Assembly (NCBI GenBank): GCA_018433595.1
Contig: JAHDQY010000005.1
Location: forward strand, 1 to 64,000
From: Synergistales bacterium
GTDB taxonomy: Bacteria > Synergistota > Synergistia > Synergistales > Aminithiophilaceae
Length of the DNA stretch: 64,000 nt
Direction of reading: 5' to 3'
Shown: piece by piece, positions 9,820 to 60,852 of the stretch
Numbering within the stretch: the first letter of the stretch is position 1
Layout of the letters: each line of letters opens with the position of its first letter
Translations under genes and position numbers: made by a program
Notes under the pieces: model-generated
The model's database searches: none
Told to the model about the DNA's origin: nothing
Seen by the model: only the letters and a program-made list of their open reading frames with translations

Positions 9820-12167
9820 TAAGGATCTCCGGCTACGGTTAAAGCCAAGTCAAAAACTTCATCGATGGTATCGACATAGTGAAAAATCATCCCCCGCTGG
9901 ACCCAGCGAGGAAGCTCTCCGGCATCTCCTCGATTGGATCGAGGGAGGATGATGTCCATGATTCCCTGCCGTCTTGCCGCAAGGACCTTCTCTCGGACTC
10001 CTCCGATGGGAAGGACTCTTCCAAGCAAAGTCATCTCTCCGGTCATCGCGACGTCGTGACGGATGGGGCGATTGGAGAAGGCTGACGCAATGGCCAGAGC
10101 CATCGTGATTCCCGCCGAAGGACCATCCTTGGGGATGGCTCCTTCAGGAACATGCAGATGCAGGTCCAGCTCTTCCCAGGGGACTTTGTCGGAGCCCAGT
10201 AAAGCTGCCTGAGATTTGAGACAACCCAAAGCCGCCTTGGCCGATTCCTGCATGATATCACCCAGGTTACCTGTCAGGGTAATCCGCCCCTTGCCTTGCA
10301 GCTTCACCGCTTCGATGACCAGGACATCTCCTCCCGTTTCCGTCCAAGCCAGGCCGACGGCAGCTCCAATGGTCGGTTTCTGGGGAATGTCGGTCCGGTG
10401 AGATTTGGGCGTACTTAAAAACCGAATGAGCTTATCGGTTCCAATTTTCACGGGGCGCACCATGGCGTGATTTCCCTCTTCGGCTTCAACAAGCATCCGC
10501 GTTACCTTCCTTGCGATACGTGCCAGTTGCTGTTCCAGTCGCCGGACACCGGCTTCTTGAGTGTAATCGGTAATGATCCTCTCCAAAGCCTGATCACTGA
10601 AAGCAATATCGCCTTCTTTAAGTCCGTGTTCGCGTAAAACCTTGGGAAGGAGATGGCGGCGAACGATATGTTTTTTTTCTTCGGCCACATAGCCGGAGAG
10701 AAAGATTGTCTCCATACGATCAAGAAGAGCCTTCGGAATAGGGTGAATCGCATTGGCTGTCGTTACGAAAAGCACTCGGCTGAGATCGAAAGGAACCTCT
10801 AAATAGTGGTCGGTAAAGTGATCGTTCTGTTCCGGATCAAGCACCTCAAGGAGTGCCGCAGCTGGATCGCCCCGGAAATCGGCGCCGACCTTGTCGATCT
10901 CATCAAGAAGCAGGACGGGGTTCCTCGTTCCGGCCTGATGAATCTTCTGGATAATCCTTCCGGGCAGCGCACCGACATAGGTTCTCCGGTGCCCCCGAAT
11001 CTCGGCCTCATCTCTCATGCCTCCGAGTGACATCTGAACGAACTGGCGATTCAGGGCACGGGCCACCGATCGGGCCAGCGACGTTTTCCCCACTCCGGGG
11101 GGGCCGACAAGGCAGAGGACCTGCCCCTTCATTTCCTGTCCCGCCATCTTGCGGGAAGCGAGAAACTCCAAAATCCGATCCTTGACTTCCTTCAATCCGT
11201 AATGGTCTTCATCGAGCACCTGTGCCGCCATCCCGATATCAAGGCGATCTCGGCTCTGCTTTTGCCAAGGAAGAGAAATAAGCCAATCCAGATAGGTTCT
11301 GACCACCGTTGCTTCAGCCGACATGGGAGGCATTTTGGAGAGGCGATCGACTTCTTTCATCGCCTTCTTCTGGACAGCACCGGACATTTTGGCTTTGTGA
11401 ACCTTGGCCAAAAGCTCCTCCCGCTCGTTAATACCGTCACCCTGCCCCAACTCGTCCTGAATGACTCGCAACTGCTCTTTCAGGTAGTATTCACGCTGCC
11501 CCTTCTCCATCTCCTGACGGACACGGTCGTGAATATCGTGTTCCAACTCGAGGATGTCAGTCTCCCTGAGAAGGATCTTCAACAACATTTCAAGCCGCTC
11601 ATCGGGAGAGAACGTCTCGAGCAGCGTCTGTTTCTCGGCAACCTTCAGGATCATGTGAGAAGCGACAAGGTCAGCGGCAAGGCCCGCTCCTTCGGCGGAG
11701 AGAACAGGCATAAGCACTTCCGCCGGGATACGGGGATGGAGGGTCACATAACGCTCGAAATGCTCTACGACGCTTCGATGAAGAGCTTCGAGGACATCGG
11801 AAAGCTCCTCCGATTCAGCGATTCCCTCCAAATCCGCCACAAAAAAATCATCTTCATGCCGAAAGGCTTCGACGTGACAGCGACATAGACCTTCGACGAG
11901 AATCTTCGTCGTTCCGTCAGGAAGACGCGCTATCTGAAGGATATGACAAAGGGTGCCGATCTCATAAAGATCATCCTCGGCGGGGTCGTCTTCTCCCATC
12001 TGTTTCTGGGCCACGACGAATACCTTTTTCTCTCGAAGCATCGCCTGCTCAAGAGCCTTCAGAGATCTCGGCCTGCCGACATAAAGAGGGGCGATAACCC
12101 CAGGAAACAGGACGATATCCCGAACGGGCAGGATCGGAATCCTTTCGTTTCGGGAGAGTGGTTCCAT
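9819..12167 (-). CDS. lon: ATP-dependent protease Lon (LonA)
   Basis: 782 residues with the N-terminal substrate-binding LAN domain, a coiled-coil linker ([21 protein letters not shown]), an AAA+ module ([13 protein letters not shown] Walker [11 protein letters not shown] Walker B) and a C-terminal serine-lysine protease domain with [11 protein letters not shown]. It degrades misfolded and regulatory proteins. I take the ATG at 12167, because the TTG one codon earlier has no advantage in ribosome-site spacing (GGAGG upstream, inside the end of clpX). It follows clpX with a three-base gap. Confidence 0.96.
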
Positions 12168-55275: not shown

Positions 55276-56486
55276 CGCGACCGATCCTGCTCTCCTTTGC
55301 CGATGAGGAGGAATTTCTCTCCCGGTTGCGCTCTCTCGGCTGCGACCCCGGCGGACTTCCCTACTTTCTCGCCAAAGAGAAAACTTTCTCTCTCCTCCTC
55401 AAGGCTATCGACACCAGGGCCGCCAACGCCCTCAAACAGGAGATGCTTTCCCGGGGAGGCGACGCCGCCGTCCATCGCAACGCCATCGACAGAGGCGTTG
55501 AACGGACGGACTGCATCCTCTTCGGGAATGAGAAACAGCTCTGCCTCCTCGTCGAGAAACTGAAGGCCATGCCCTATTGGGGCCTGGATCAGATCCGTCG
55601 GGACCTGGAAGAGGCCCTCCTCTCTATGACAAGACCCGCCGAGGGACTCGACCTCCCCAGGGGACGCCGGCTGACCTTCGGAACCCGAACGCTCGTCATG
55701 GGCATCCTGAACGTGACATCGGATTCCTTCTACCCCGGCAGCCGCATCGGCACCCTGAAAGAGCTGATTGACCGCGCGGGACAGATGGTCGATGAGGGCG
55801 TCGACATCATCGACATCGGTGCCGAATCAACCCGCCCCGGCTCGGAAAGCATTGACGAAACCACCGAACGGAAGCGGCTCATCCCGGCGATCGAAACCCT
55901 CAGAGAACGCTTTCCCGATCTTCCCCTCTCAGCCGACACCTACAAGGCAGCCATTGCCGAAGAGGCCGTCGCCGCCGGCGCCGACATCATCAACGACATC
56001 TCCGGTTTCGGCTTCGATAGGGCTTTTGCCGAAAGAACAGCTACCCTTGGCGTCCCCGTCGTTCTGATGCACATCAAGGGGCACCCACGGGATATGCAGA
56101 AAAACCCCTGCTACAACGACCTGCTACCTGAGATAGCCGCCTTTCTCGAAGAGCGACTCGACCTCGCTCGCCAAGCCGGCATTGACAGGAAAAGGATCGT
56201 CATCGATCCCGGCATCGGCTTCGGAAAAACACCGGAGCACAACCTGGAAATCCTACGTCACCTTGAGGCCTTCCGAACCTTCGGTCTTCCACTGCTGATA
56301 GGACATTCACGAAAGAGTTTTCTCGGAGCCGTACTCGATCAGCCCTCGCCTGAAGAGCGCCTGGAGGGAACCATGGCCGTATCCGCTCTCTGCGCCTGGC
56401 AGGGTGTCGAAATCATCCGAGTCCATGACGTGGGCGCCAACAGAAAGGTTCTCGATACGATCGCTGCCGTCAGAGGAACTCGATAA
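55272..56486 (+). CDS. folP: Dihydropteroate synthase with an N-terminal extension
   Basis: 404 residues. The synthase TIM barrel begins near residue 135: MGILNVTSDSFYPGSR, IIDIGAESTRPGSE, SADTYKAAIAEEAVAAGADIINDISG and the C-terminal LLIGHSRKSFLG are all present. The first 130 residues form an extra domain with LKQEMLSRGGDAAVHR. A similar extension occurs in some clostridial synthases; its role is unknown. The start at 55272 overlaps the queD stop (ATGA). It makes dihydropteroate, which FolC (5.2-6.5 kb) then glutamylates. Confidence 0.94.
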   Translation: MTRPILLSFADEEEFLSRLRSLGCDPGGLPYFLAKEKTFSLLLKAIDTRAANALKQEMLSRGGDAAVHRNAIDRGVERTDCILFGNEKQLCLLVEKLKAMPYWGLDQIRRDLEEALLSMTRPAEGLDLPRGRRLTFGTRTLVMGILNVTSDSFYPGSRIGTLKELIDRAGQMVDEGVDIIDIGAESTRPGSESIDETTERKRLIPAIETLRERFPDLPLSADTYKAAIAEEAVAAGADIINDISGFGFDRAFAERTATLGVPVVLMHIKGHPRDMQKNPCYNDLLPEIAAFLEERLDLARQAGIDRKRIVIDPGIGFGKTPEHNLEILRHLEAFRTFGLPLLIGHSRKSFLGAVLDQPSPEERLEGTMAVSALCAWQGVEIIRVHDVGANRKVLDTIAAVRGTR

Positions 56487-56505
56487 AGAGAAGGAATGTG
56501 ACGCA

Positions 56506-57741
56506 ATGCTCGCTGCAGCTTTTGATGCCTTTTTACTGGATCTCGACGGAGTCGTCTACGTCGGTGAAGCCCCGACGATCGGAGCGCCTTCAGCTTTGAG
56601 AAGGCTTCGCCGAATGGGCAAGGAGATCCGATTCCTCACCAACAACCCCACCGGGACCGATGTGATCGTCAAGCGCCTGAACGCTCTCGACATCGAGGCC
56701 CACGAAGCGGAAGTGATCACTTCGGGCACGGTCACGGCCTTATTTCTCGCGGAGCACAACGTCGGAAGCGCCTGGATATTGGGACAGACAAGCCTCAAGA
56801 AAACGCTGCAATCTCGTGGCGTATCCCCCTTGAGCGGCCCTCCCTGCGACGCCATCGTCGCAGGATGGGATGACGGCATCACCTTGGGTAACATCCGAGA
56901 GGCGGCCACGGTCATCCGCAAAGGAGCTCTTTTTGTAGCCACCAACGAGGACCGGACCTATCCCGACCCTCAAGGCCCTCTAGCTGCGGTGGGAACCCTG
57001 GTGGAGGCTCTGATTGCGGCATCGGGGCAACGCCCTCTCTCAATGGGCAAGCCTCAATCTCCCATGTTCGACCTGGCTCTGAAAAATCTCAAAGCGGGAA
57101 AGCATAAAACTCTCATGATCGGAGATACCCCTGAGATAGACATCCTCGGCGCCCACCGCGCCGGAATTCAAGCCGTTCTCATGGGCGAAGCCCCCGCCTT
57201 CCCTCATTGTGGGGATTTCCGAAACCCCGACGGGAGAATCTCTTCCCTAAGCGATCTTTTCAATCCCGGCATCTCCGTCAAAAAATGGGACCTCCCCTCC
57301 TACCAATGGCCGGAGCGAGTGGAAGCGGGAGTCGCTGCCGTGGTCCTCGACGATGATGGCAACGTCCTGCTTATGCGACGCAGCGACAATGGACTCTGGG
57401 GCATTCCTTCAGGGCATGTGGAACCGACCGAAACGGTAAAGGCGGCCGTGATTCGTGAAATCCGGGAAGAAACAGGCCTTGAAACTGAAATAGAAAGGCT
57501 CGTCGGAATTTATTCGGACCCTCGCTCTCAGGTGATCACCTATCCGGACCACCGGATACGCCATTTCATCACAACCTGCTTCCTCTGTCATCCATGCGGA
57601 GGAACCCTGCAATCCTGCGGTCCGGAAACCCTTGATACCGCCTTTTTCCCCACCGAAGCTCTTCCTGAGCCGATGATGACCATGCACCCACGTTGGCTCG
57701 CCGATGCCCTGGCACAAGTCAAGGAACCCTTCATCCGCTGA
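56506..57741 (+). CDS. HAD-IIA phosphatase fused to a Nudix hydrolase
   Basis: 411 residues. Residues 1-255 are a NagD-like HAD phosphatase: nucleophile motif DLDGVVYVGEA near 10, FLTNNPTGTD, GKPQSPMFDLAL and the metal-binding IGDTPEIDILGAHRAG. Residues about 275-411 are a Nudix domain whose box matches the GX5EX7REUXEEXGU consensus exactly (GHVEPTE...REIREETGL). It follows folP by 19 bases with AAGGA before the ATG at 56506. Both domains remove phosphate groups, so dephosphorylation of a pterin or nucleotide intermediate is a reasonable guess; nothing in the sequence names the substrate. Confidence 0.9.
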   Translation: MLAAAFDAFLLDLDGVVYVGEAPTIGAPSALRRLRRMGKEIRFLTNNPTGTDVIVKRLNALDIEAHEAEVITSGTVTALFLAEHNVGSAWILGQTSLKKTLQSRGVSPLSGPPCDAIVAGWDDGITLGNIREAATVIRKGALFVATNEDRTYPDPQGPLAAVGTLVEALIAASGQRPLSMGKPQSPMFDLALKNLKAGKHKTLMIGDTPEIDILGAHRAGIQAVLMGEAPAFPHCGDFRNPDGRISSLSDLFNPGISVKKWDLPSYQWPERVEAGVAAVVLDDDGNVLLMRRSDNGLWGIPSGHVEPTETVKAAVIREIREETGLETEIERLVGIYSDPRSQVITYPDHRIRHFITTCFLCHPCGGTLQSCGPETLDTAFFPTEALPEPMMTMHPRWLADALAQVKEPFIR

Positions 57742-57756
57742 ACACGACGGGAATTG

Positions 57757-57784
57757 CCGCCTTGGGTTCAAAACGCAAAGGCGG
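57757..57784 (+). terminator. Weak terminator-like hairpin after the HAD-Nudix gene
   Basis: Seven-base stem CCGCCTT/AAGGCGG with a 14-base loop and no U-run, 16 bases after the stop codon. Low stability. Confidence 0.35.
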
Positions 57785-57841
57785 AGCCCTCAAGGGAGCA
57801 TAGGGAGCCCGCGGTCGGGACACTACCGCAAGGGGGAATGC

Positions 57842-58789
57842 CTATTTTGATGCAAGCCTTTCTCCCTCGGCAATAACGCCTTCAAGCTTTGCAAAGAAGC
57901 TTTCGGAGTTGCTAAGATCTACAGATACCTTTACTATAGTCCCGACCATCGGCAACCTGAACATTGAAAAGCGCTGACCTTCAAAAACCAAAAGATCGTT
58001 CTTGCTGAATATTGAAAACCCGCCCATCTTTTCACCAATTTTAGATATAGAAAATAGCCCTGCCCCTGTTTTCTCGCTTTTATTGACATTCTTGGAATCT
58101 TTAGAGATTCCAAACTGAAGAGATTTACGAATTGCCATTATATTGTCTTTCATGCCATACTTTCCCGCCAACGACTCAGTTATTCCTACTCCTTCATCCG
58201 AAACGACAATATCTACGCTATCTTTTCTCCATTTTTGGGCAACAACATAACATTTGTCGGTTTTAGAATGCTGAAAAACGTTATTTATAATTTCAGAGAA
58301 AAAATAGCTAATTATGTCAATTTCTTTTTTATAATCGCTAGAAAAAAGTATTTTTGACAAAAAAATAGAGTATTTTTTTATACTAGCCATAAAATTGACT
58401 TCTTCCATGGCCTTAATATCTTGTTTTGTTATTTTCATAATGGGAATGCATTCTAATGCCGGTTTTTGGACCTTTCCTTTTTCGTATATGTTCCAATTAA
58501 CATGATCGAAAAAATTAAAAAAAATGAGGCGATTGACAGATGGCCTTAGCTTGCCATCATCATCTGTCAGGTTTAAAAACCTCACTCCTACATTACTGTT
58601 ATCTTTGTTGCATTTCATGAAGGCATATCTTAACGCCTGAGCTGCCAACATGATGCCAAATGGCTCAACGAAATCAAGCTCTCCGAAATCAAAAATCAGC
58701 TCAGGTTCTGCCATGGACATTAGAACTTTATTTGAAAATTCAGCCGCTCCCCTGTCATCCAATATATTCGGGAAAAATATCGTCGTCAT
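57842..58789 (-). CDS. STAS-like / HATPase_c ATP-binding protein, AT-rich, probably acquired
   Basis: 315 residues. The first 90 resemble a STAS fold (LIFDFGELDFVEPFGIMLAAQALR). From about 165 there is a GHKL ATPase domain: N-box IISYFFSEIINNVFQHS, G1 VVSDEGVGI and G2 GAGLFSISKIG. No histidine phosphotransfer region or membrane helix is present, so it is not a usual sensor kinase; an anti-sigma-type kinase or conflict-system ATPase is more likely. The ATG at 58789 has GGAGG 7 bases upstream. Composition is strikingly AT-rich, with runs of A and T unlike neighbours. It is divergent from a short recombinase and near tRNA-Sec. Confidence 0.8.
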   Translation of the reverse strand: MTTIFFPNILDDRGAAEFSNKVLMSMAEPELIFDFGELDFVEPFGIMLAAQALRYAFMKCNKDNSNVGVRFLNLTDDDGKLRPSVNRLIFFNFFDHVNWNIYEKGKVQKPALECIPIMKITKQDIKAMEEVNFMASIKKYSIFLSKILFSSDYKKEIDIISYFFSEIINNVFQHSKTDKCYVVAQKWRKDSVDIVVSDEGVGITESLAGKYGMKDNIMAIRKSLQFGISKDSKNVNKSEKTGAGLFSISKIGEKMGGFSIFSKNDLLVFEGQRFSMFRLPMVGTIVKVSVDLSNSESFFAKLEGVIAEGERLASK

Positions 58790-58920
58790 TGCGACACCTC
58801 CAATCCCGCACAAAACACTTATCTAATTTTATAGTTCGCTCGGAGTCTGGCCTTGAATGTCTTATATTGTACCACGATAGGCTTTTAGTGATATTCAACA
58901 AGAAGGGAGCCGAGTTCCCT

Positions 58921-59499
58921 ATGGACTTCGTACAGCCAATCAAAGACCAGGCCAAGATCGAAGCCATGAAGAAGGTGCTCAAGACCAAAAGGCTGAGGGA
59001 CTACGCCCTCTTCGTCTTGGGCATCAACTCCGGACTTCGCATCTCTGACCTTCTGGCTCTCAAGGTGGAGGACATCCTCACCACCGAAGGAAACGTTTCC
59101 GATCGCATCACACTAAGCGGAGAAAGGACTGGGAAAACGCAAGTTTTCCCTATTGGACCGTCAGCAAGGGAGGCATTGAAAGAGCACCTTGCCCAAAGTG
59201 CCCTGGCTCCAACGTCGCCACTTTTTCCTTCTCGGAAAGGAAACCAAGGAAAGATTCGGCCCATAAGCAGAGAGCAGGCCTATCGCATCCTCAACGATGC
59301 AGCTAAAACGGTAGGCATCAAGGAGAACATCGGGACACACACTTTACGGAAGACTTTTGCCTATCACGCCTACAAGAACGGCCATGACCTGTCGATGATT
59401 CAGAAAATCCTGAATCACTCGGCTCCTTCGGTGACGCTCCGCTATATCGGCATCACTCAGGAGGAACCCGGCGATGTCCGCTTCTCCATGGACCTGTGA
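58921..59499 (+). CDS. Short tyrosine recombinase (catalytic domain only)
   Basis: 192 residues. The tyrosine-recombinase residues are visible: arginine in NSGLRISDLLALKVEDI, HTLRKTFAYHAY (H-x-x-R), the second histidine in ILNHSAPSVT and the nucleophile tyrosine in LRYIGIT. The N-terminal core-binding domain of ordinary integrases is missing. Related 190-residue stand-alone recombinases are found in Firmicutes. AAGGGAG lies 11 bases before the ATG. It points toward tRNA-Sec, whose 3' end is 86 bases beyond the stop. Unlike the neighbouring ATPase gene, its base composition resembles the host. Confidence 0.88.
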   Translation: MDFVQPIKDQAKIEAMKKVLKTKRLRDYALFVLGINSGLRISDLLALKVEDILTTEGNVSDRITLSGERTGKTQVFPIGPSAREALKEHLAQSALAPTSPLFPSRKGNQGKIRPISREQAYRILNDAAKTVGIKENIGTHTLRKTFAYHAYKNGHDLSMIQKILNHSAPSVTLRYIGITQEEPGDVRFSMDL

Positions 59500-59529
59500 A
59501 AAGGAAGACGACGCGACAGAACAGAATGA

Positions 59530-59569
59530 CAAGGCCGCCCTTGGGGTTGATCCCCAGAGGGCGGCCTTG
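59530..59569. terminator. Convergent hairpin between the recombinase and tRNA-Sec
   Basis: Eleven-base stem CAAGGCCGCCC/GGGCGGCCTTG with an inner GGGG/CCCC helix. It can end both the recombinase transcript and, 15 bases past its 3' end, the tRNA-Sec transcript. Weak T content follows on the minus side. Confidence 0.6.
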
Positions 59570-59584
59570 ATTTCGTTGATGGTT

Positions 59585-59682
59585 TGGCGGAGGCGTGTGG
59601 GAATCGAACCCACCGGGGCCGGCTTTTACCGACCCCCAACAGATTTGAAGTCTGCACCCGGCACCAGCCGAGAAGCGCCTCC
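59585..59682 (-). tRNA. selC: tRNA-Sec (selenocysteine, anticodon TCA)
   Basis: 98 bases including CCA, longer than other tRNAs. Acceptor GGAGGCG/CGCCTCC; anticodon loop CTTCAAA gives TCA, which reads UGA; a very long variable arm (GGGGTCGG/CCGGCCCC) and T-loop GGTTCGATT follow. These are bacterial SelC features. It implies the host makes selenoproteins, such as glycine or proline reductase or formate dehydrogenase. The other sel genes are not in this window. Confidence 0.95.
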
Positions 59683-59791: not shown

Positions 59792-60691
59792 TCAGGAGCG
59801 CAGGGGCTCGATACCGAGACGCCTGTAAATATCGCGGATTTTTTCTTTCGTCTCCTCCGTAGCGGGGAGAATCGGCGGGCGGGGATTGCCGCCCCGATAG
59901 CCGACCATGTCCATGGCGGCTTTCATGCCTCCTATGCCGAAACGGGATGTGACGGCGGCATTGATCTCCATGATGGCCAGCTGGAGTCTTCGGGCTTTGG
60001 CAAGGTCACCGGCAAGAAAGGCTTCATAAAGATCGGTGCAGAGCTCGGGGACCACGTTGGCGACAGCCATGGTCCCGCCGTCTCCGCCGAGAACGAGGGT
60101 GGGCAACAGGAAGCTCCCGGAACCGGCGATGACGGAAAAGCCTTCGATAGCGCCGGAGATGATTTCGGTGATCTGAACGATGTTGGCCGAGCTATCCTTG
60201 ATACCGACAATGTTGGGGTGAGTTGAAAGGCGGCAGCAGAGGGACGAGGTGATGTTGACGCCGGTGTTGCGAGGCATGTTGTAGAGGATAACGGGGATGG
60301 GAGATGTTTCGGCCGTTTCAACGTAGAAACGCTCCAGGGCCATCTCCCCCATGTCTGTTTTGTAGTAACAGGGCGTCAGGACGAGAGCGGCATCGGCGCC
60401 GGCATCGGCGCAACGGCGGGTCAAGGTGATGGTTTCTCGAAGGGATTCCCGGCCCGCTCCCGCAATGATCAGCTTATCCTGGGGAAGGCAGCGACGGGCC
60501 GTGGCAACGAGCCGCACCTTCTCCTCCTCTTCGAGGAGGGCGAATTCGCCGTTGCTTCCGAGGACGACAAGACCAGCCAGACGCGTCAGGCCGTACTGCG
60601 CGACATTTTCTTCAAAGGCCTGCCAATCGACGTCGTAGTTGCTGTCGAAAGGGGTAGAAAGAGGAGCAAAAATTCCGGAGATCTTCTTCAT
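59792..60691 (-). CDS. dapA: DapA-family lyase/aldolase (4-hydroxy-tetrahydrodipicolinate synthase-like)
   Basis: 299 residues, class I aldolase TIM barrel. The Schiff-base lysine is in IVGIKDSSANI (about 162-172) and the catalytic tyrosine in VILYNMPRNTGVN (about 135). The substrate loop GSNGEFALL replaces the usual GTTGE of true DapA. This change, and the lack of other lysine-pathway genes, means a related pyruvate aldolase (for example for a keto-sugar acid) is possible. ATG at 60691 is preferred to the TTG before it. Divergent from the aminotransferase gene. Confidence 0.85.
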   Translation of the reverse strand: MKKISGIFAPLSTPFDSNYDVDWQAFEENVAQYGLTRLAGLVVLGSNGEFALLEEEEKVRLVATARRCLPQDKLIIAGAGRESLRETITLTRRCADAGADAALVLTPCYYKTDMGEMALERFYVETAETSPIPVILYNMPRNTGVNITSSLCCRLSTHPNIVGIKDSSANIVQITEIISGAIEGFSVIAGSGSFLLPTLVLGGDGGTMAVANVVPELCTDLYEAFLAGDLAKARRLQLAIMEINAAVTSRFGIGGMKAAMDMVGYRGGNPRPPILPATEETKEKIRDIYRRLGIEPLRS

Positions 60692-60852
60692 CAATCGACA
60701 CCCCCTGTTTCGGGAATAGGCGGCTCAAGCCACCGTAGGCCGATTCCAGTTTACTCCATAAGGAGCAACGTCTCAGCACTGCCTTGCGGTAGAATGACAA
60801 GAGAGCGCCGCGATCACACCGTCCACTCCGTTACCCGGGTGATAATTTGAAA

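Follow-up and report, generated by a model that had tools for sequence, protein, structure and literature searches.

In a 64,000-nucleotide stretch of a Synergistales genome (the window), the 3′ flank of an intact tRNA-Sec gene holds a stand-alone tyrosine recombinase gene and, divergent from it, an AT-rich gene for an ATPase. With moderate confidence, we interpret this locus as a small composite insertion that formed in two steps, in which an orphaned recombinase module would have been joined later by the ATPase gene. The initial annotation had positioned and described the ATPase gene, the small recombinase gene, and tRNA-Sec accurately, including the divergence of the ATPase gene from a recombinase without a core-binding domain and the place of both just beyond the tRNA-Sec 3′ end. 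The features of the locus are as follows.

56404..57741, + strand: HAD/NUDIX fusion gene (longest ORF), named from protein reading
57842..58789, − strand: GHKL (HATPase_c) ATPase with a putative STAS-like domain, 315 aa, phrog_3364 family
58790..58920, no strand: divergent intergenic region, 131 bp
58921..59499, + strand: stand-alone tyrosine recombinase, 192 aa, catalytic domain only, phrog_216 family
59530..59569, no strand: inverted repeat with 17-nt arms, 88% complementary, and a 6-nt loop, read from the sequence
59585..59682, − strand: tRNA-Sec, intact (Rfam RF01852, 78 bits)
59792..60694, − strand: dihydrodipicolinate-synthase-like gene, named from protein reading
58665-58678 and 59566-59579, no strand: arms of a 14-bp perfect inverted repeat, assessed by simulation

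The ATPase gene starts with the ATG at 58789 and has a GGAGG ribosome site. The 3′ end of tRNA-Sec faces the recombinase gene, and the inverted repeat at 59530..59569 is likely a terminator between the two.

The stretch beside tRNA-Sec is missing from three congeners

The HAD/NUDIX gene forms a conserved left flank in three congeners (64 to 68% identity), and the dihydrodipicolinate-synthase-like gene forms a conserved right flank, with homologous sequence in two of them (G001 and G003). Between the HAD/NUDIX gene and tRNA-Sec, the gap is ∼265 to 330 bp in G001, G002, and G003 versus 1.84 kb here. The extra ∼1.6 kb is missing from all three congeners, and the comparison with close relatives that had been proposed for a suspected recent insertion thus revealed an empty site each time. 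As sampled, with one genome per species, only this species of its genus has the stretch. The ATPase was matched in 2 of 61 genomes, the window's own included, and is absent from the three congeners; G001 does contain a mini-recombinase, more distant and located elsewhere. For the recombinase gene, loss from the three congeners rather than gain is possible. A search for residual host sequence by which the borders could be placed returned no significant similarity; even among congeners the intergenic sequence cannot be aligned, which precludes base-exact insertion borders.

A catalytic-domain-only recombinase and its relatives

The recombinase matches the Pfam Phage_integrase family (PF00589, 94.9 bits) from residue 12 onward; by Pfam, it has a complete catalytic domain and no N-terminal core-binding domain. 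The catalytic residues R40, K72, H140, R143, H166, and Y175 are all in place and do not vary across 12 relatives. Over residues 1 to 187 the protein matches phrog_216 as a full-length member (2.2e-62), and 301 phage records match recombinases of this type. The integrase-like or small recombinases of phages in this family (Streptococcus phages Javan182, phage Lietuvens) have a similar length, are ∼44 to 49% identical to the window protein over their full length, and likewise consist of the catalytic domain only with all catalytic residues. They lie, however, among packaging or structural genes, whereas the window copy is chromosomal and at tRNA-Sec. FimB/FimE-type DNA invertases share the build of the window recombinase (∼190 to 200 aa, catalytic domain only), but the profile match to them is weak (PRK09871, 65.5 bits, far under the cutoff of 222), and the window holds no demonstrated invertible element.

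In related genomes, mini-recombinases of this family were found in three settings. The first comprises phage and prophage copies among packaging and structural genes, some of them upstream of terminase genes. For several prophage copies, a dyad site is situated 140 to 200 bp downstream of the recombinase gene. Across L063, L066, L067, L072, L232, and phage Lietuvens (L055), such a dyad lies 140 to 300 bp downstream; several of the prophage recombinases with a downstream dyad are near terminase genes, and in phage Lietuvens the recombinase gene is close to the terminal repeat. The combination of prophage mini-recombinase and dyad suggests a Cre-lox-like circularization or dimer-resolution role.

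The second setting comprises stand-alone chromosomal genes (in G010, G145, G152, G153, G043, and G139). Most have one dif-like dyad site, with a consensus of about ATGTAACACAATnnnATTGTGTTACAT, ∼140 to 260 bp upstream of the gene (L056, L058, L059, L228, L229, L230, and L231). At one mismatch or fewer, this dyad is confined to the recombinase flanks in G010, G145, G152, and G153. A dyad half-site often overlaps the likely promoter of the stand-alone recombinase. Two of the G010 mini-recombinases (L058 and L059) are 1 to 2 kb from a long tyrosine-integrase-like gene beside tRNA-Ser and are probably parts of tRNA-Ser islands. The stand-alone relatives resemble XerS-difSL, a type of recombinase/site module in which one recombinase is linked genetically to one dyad site (PMC2731167), but they differ in having no core-binding domain and, in some genomes, in forming several modules; the window recombinase differs further in having no site.

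In the third setting, found in a sister clade, two copies of a dyad site in inverted orientation (18 to 41 bp, perfect or nearly so) flank a recombinase gene, in units of 0.77 to 0.94 kb:

L246, 6090-7032: inverted-site unit
L247, 8960-9826: inverted-site unit
L248, 1959-2764: inverted-site unit
L249, 716-1544: inverted-site unit
L250, 3175-3963: inverted-site unit
L251, 2823-3596: inverted-site unit
L253, 8541-9480: inverted-site unit
L256, 5234-6094: inverted-site unit

A genome has several of these units, each surrounded by unrelated host genes, and the sites differ from one unit to another. The layout resembles that of a self-inverting module.

The form and position of the dyads lead us to infer that they are crossover sites, although they could instead be operators. 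Dif-like dyads of this kind are more in keeping with a resolvase or an invertase than with a tRNA integrase of the usual sort. Some prophage members have a dyad downstream, but none was recognized beside the window copy. At the window locus the position matrix reached a maximum of 3.9, versus 31 to 35 for the sites from which it was built and 22 to 30 for those of G043 and G139, and the dyad pattern had no match within two mismatches anywhere in the window genome; both matrix and pattern would miss divergent dyad sites, and the pattern also missed the G043 site. A stand-alone relative, copy d of G010 (L060), has no dyad either, so the absence of a dyad need not be due to the ATPase gene.

tRNA-Sec as a location for the recombinase lineage

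Mini-recombinase genes occupy ∼75 places in 188 genomes, and those of the window genome, G043, and G139 are within ∼500 bp of tRNA-Sec. G043 and G139 belong to another bacterial family; in both, tRNA-Sec lies 5′ of the recombinase gene at a distance of ∼330 bp, and the window recombinase has the opposite orientation relative to tRNA-Sec. In the recombinase tree, the window protein groups with the G043 and G139 tRNA-Sec copies with mixed support (UFBoot 97, SH-aLRT 65), and a wider clade (95/88) joins these three with stand-alone copies from G010. When a 1-kb target around a single gene is set against a genome of 2.5 Mb, the chance expectation of the tRNA-Sec association is ∼0.03 among the 75 places, with the window left out as selected and G043 and G139 counted as one lineage. 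With the same exclusions it is ∼0.005 for the dozen stand-alone copies. Given this estimate and the tree, an association between the recombinase lineage and tRNA-Sec is likely real, though not proven. The idea that tRNA-Sec serves as an integration spot therefore gained ground, in that its neighborhood looks like a hotspot for this lineage.

What accompanies the recombinase at tRNA-Sec varies. In G139 a SAM methyltransferase gene (L233, 1045-1719) lies between the recombinase gene and the next conserved gene, and in G043 there is none. On the tRNA-Sec module's far side, G043 (L057, ∼10509-10534) and G139 (L233, ∼1720-1750) share an identical 26-bp sequence, GCAACATAAGATACATTATAGGACAT, and it contains a half-site like those of the recombinase sites. 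In several related genomes a Xer-type recombinase gene is situated within a few kilobases of tRNA-Sec (G000:C67:65688-66140; L234-L239), independently of the mini-recombinase.

No tRNA-derived direct repeat was found at the window locus, in G043, or in G139. A search for a direct repeat of the tRNA-Sec 3′ end near 57.75 to 57.85 kb had been proposed; inspection of 57742-57845 yielded at best the 7-mer GGCGGAG at 57780-57786, which is within the 3′ arm of the putative terminator stem of the upstream gene.

A GHKL ATPase with a putative STAS-like domain

The C-terminal half of the ATPase is a GHKL ATP-binding domain (PF02518, 31.4 bits). The family residues N170, D198, G200, G202, G242, and G244 are invariant, and the N, G1, and G2 motifs are intact. 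In the predicted model (mean pLDDT 82), the N-terminal half forms a mixed beta/alpha domain of its own. An SLC26A7 transporter chain matches the fold of this domain weakly and locally (98 columns, probability 0.99, E = 0.061); the matched part of that chain is presumably its STAS domain. Pfam gave no STAS match for the N-terminal half. Canonical STAS antagonists carry their phospho-acceptor serine in a DSSG motif. At that position the window protein appears to read EPFG, which makes a classical partner-switching role unlikely. Assignment to the RsbW/SpoIIAB anti-sigma kinases was rejected (TIGR01925, 13.5 bits versus a cutoff of 135). The protein probably serves in ATP-driven regulation or sensing, as a GHKL-type protein. 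Literature searches for the STAS-GHKL architecture returned nothing useful.

Peptide patterns found no close relatives in the viral and genome collections, and a profile of distant members was needed; against phrog_3364 the match is full length (3.4e-23). The family is broad: phages, plasmids, and many bacterial phyla all contain full-length members. Like the window protein, its members in phages, plasmids, and islands are solitary and usually AT-rich relative to their hosts, but the window ATPase has diverged, with only ∼20 to 29% identity to them. Across 85 loci, the GC content of the ATPase gene was under that of its own locus in 89% (mean difference, −0.076; Wilcoxon P = 4e-14). Phage copies are near prophage ends or integrases; those of Javan140 and MPV1 have downstream a gene of ∼100 to 130 aa that looks STAS-like, for which there is no room in the window.

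Relatives' ORFs were called mechanically, most neighbor names come from protein reading, and each neighbor cluster was named from one member protein. So defined, the commonest neighbor clusters are serine recombinases (8 loci), HsdM-like proteins (6 loci), and tyrosine integrases (5 loci), at varying positions. Some of the ATPase loci are clearly islands: the G033 locus is near an HsdM-like gene and an integrase, and on Bradyrhizobium plasmids the ATPase gene is beside a helicase/phospholipase D cluster. MADS, BREX, HipA, and DNA methylase genes are among 105 near neighbors of the family, and defense-like neighbors (restriction-modification, MADS, BREX, and HipA), counted without a matched control, occur at a minority of loci. 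These neighborhoods are suggestive of enrichment in defense islands, and a defense role for the ATPase is a guess. No PADLOC model fits it; the sole match, to DrmA, was partial (16.6 bits) and over the GHKL region.

One unit or two arrivals

The initial annotation suggested that the two genes might form an unusually small mobile or defense unit with the ATPase as cargo; in such an element the recombinase would integrate the pair at tRNA-Sec. Their adjacency and divergent arrangement, the place just past tRNA-Sec, the empty site in congeners, and the differing neighbors of the recombinase at tRNA-Sec in G043 and G139 all favor that view. Against it, the two genes are unmatched in composition. 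The ATPase gene had been described as visibly AT-rich in a GC-rich background, and the measurements agree: its GC content is 0.365 (0.56 for the long ORFs of the window), its GC3 is 0.37 (0.62 for those ORFs), and its codon score is an outlier (z = −3.1; reference, 35 long ORFs of the window). By the same reference the recombinase gene is host-like (GC3, 0.65; codon z = −0.7). This contrast is not as expected from one joint transfer, unless the donor was itself mosaic. The pair was found at no other locus: the 85 ATPase loci have no recurrent partner gene, and by inspection no ATPase of this family is present in the listed mini-recombinase neighborhoods. Nor is there a tRNA-end repeat at the locus, and the defense part of the claim is weakened by the missing PADLOC match and by defense-like neighbors at only a minority of loci. 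The locus is probably an unusual small insertion spot, and a two-gene mobile or defense unit is improbable. From the original proposal of a recent insertion of a unit, the empty site and the tRNA-Sec hotspot survive, and the arrival of the pair together, with its unmatched codon use and lack of a recurrent partner, does not.

The pair might also be what is left of a degraded prophage or larger island at tRNA-Sec, reduced to the recombinase and an accessory ATPase. Phages do carry both families: the recombinase is found upstream of terminase genes in prophages and in the phage records counted above, and the ATPase near prophage ends or integrases. The window recombinase, however, groups with the stand-alone chromosomal copies and apart from the prophage clade, the stretch contains no other phage gene, and codon use differs between the two genes. 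We regard such a remnant as an unlikely origin.

The 14-bp inverted repeat raises the idea of a FimB-like switch, in which the recombinase would invert the 0.9-kb segment between the arms at 58665 and 59566 for phase variation, one orientation parting the ATPase from its start and promoter. The size and domain makeup of the recombinase resemble those of FimB/FimE-type invertases, the span of 915 bp is similar to the length of the sister units, in which the recombinase gene also lies between inverted sites, and among known switches some repeats measure just 7 bp (PMC6083910). A repeat of this length exceeds expectation, with an equally long one in 2 of 300 simulations (P of about 0.007 before correction), but many repeats were examined, and the chance level is thereby understated. 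The right arm adjoins the tRNA-Sec 3′ end. Since the repeat has no dyad like the sites of the family, its left arm falls within the ATPase ORF in codons for the conserved EPFG region, and it may be due to chance, we consider both the switch and its effect on the ATPase very improbable.

A two-step composite insertion

The composite insertion that we favor would have begun with the older step, in which a chromosomal phrog_216 mini-recombinase module settled beside tRNA-Sec, as in the sister lineage. The module would have consisted of the recombinase gene and one adjacent dif-like dyad, at which the enzyme would cut and rejoin DNA through its conserved tyrosine. In the younger step, an AT-rich, solitary STAS-GHKL ATPase gene, from a family that appears to travel with phages, plasmids, and genomic islands, would have landed upstream of the recombinase gene and removed or replaced the dyad. 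The ATPase gene starts 131 bp upstream of the recombinase gene, and the relatives' dyads are ∼140 to 260 bp upstream, so the ATPase gene is about where the dyad would be. The recombinase is probably catalytically competent and an orphan without a recognizable site in cis. It should be able to bind and cut suitable dyads in trans; none was recognized in the genome.

A bolder reading, which we hold to be doubtful, is that the tRNA-Sec mini-recombinase modules of ∼1 kb, each the gene with one dif-like site, act as autonomous mobile elements of minimal size and take up single cargo genes. Under it, and with no greater likelihood, the cargo would be the ATPase in the window, the methyltransferase in G139, and none in G043. 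If true, this would define a class of single-gene tyrosine-recombinase elements smaller than described islands.

As an example of accessory genes gathering beside tRNA-Sec, the window locus is modest, and the inverted-site units are of more interest. Recombinases that consist of the catalytic domain only, in three settings, offer testable predictions on self-inversion, dimer resolution, and single-gene mobility. The STAS-GHKL ATPase family, which is widespread, uncharacterized, AT-rich, and island associated, would be a reasonable target for a defense or regulation screen.
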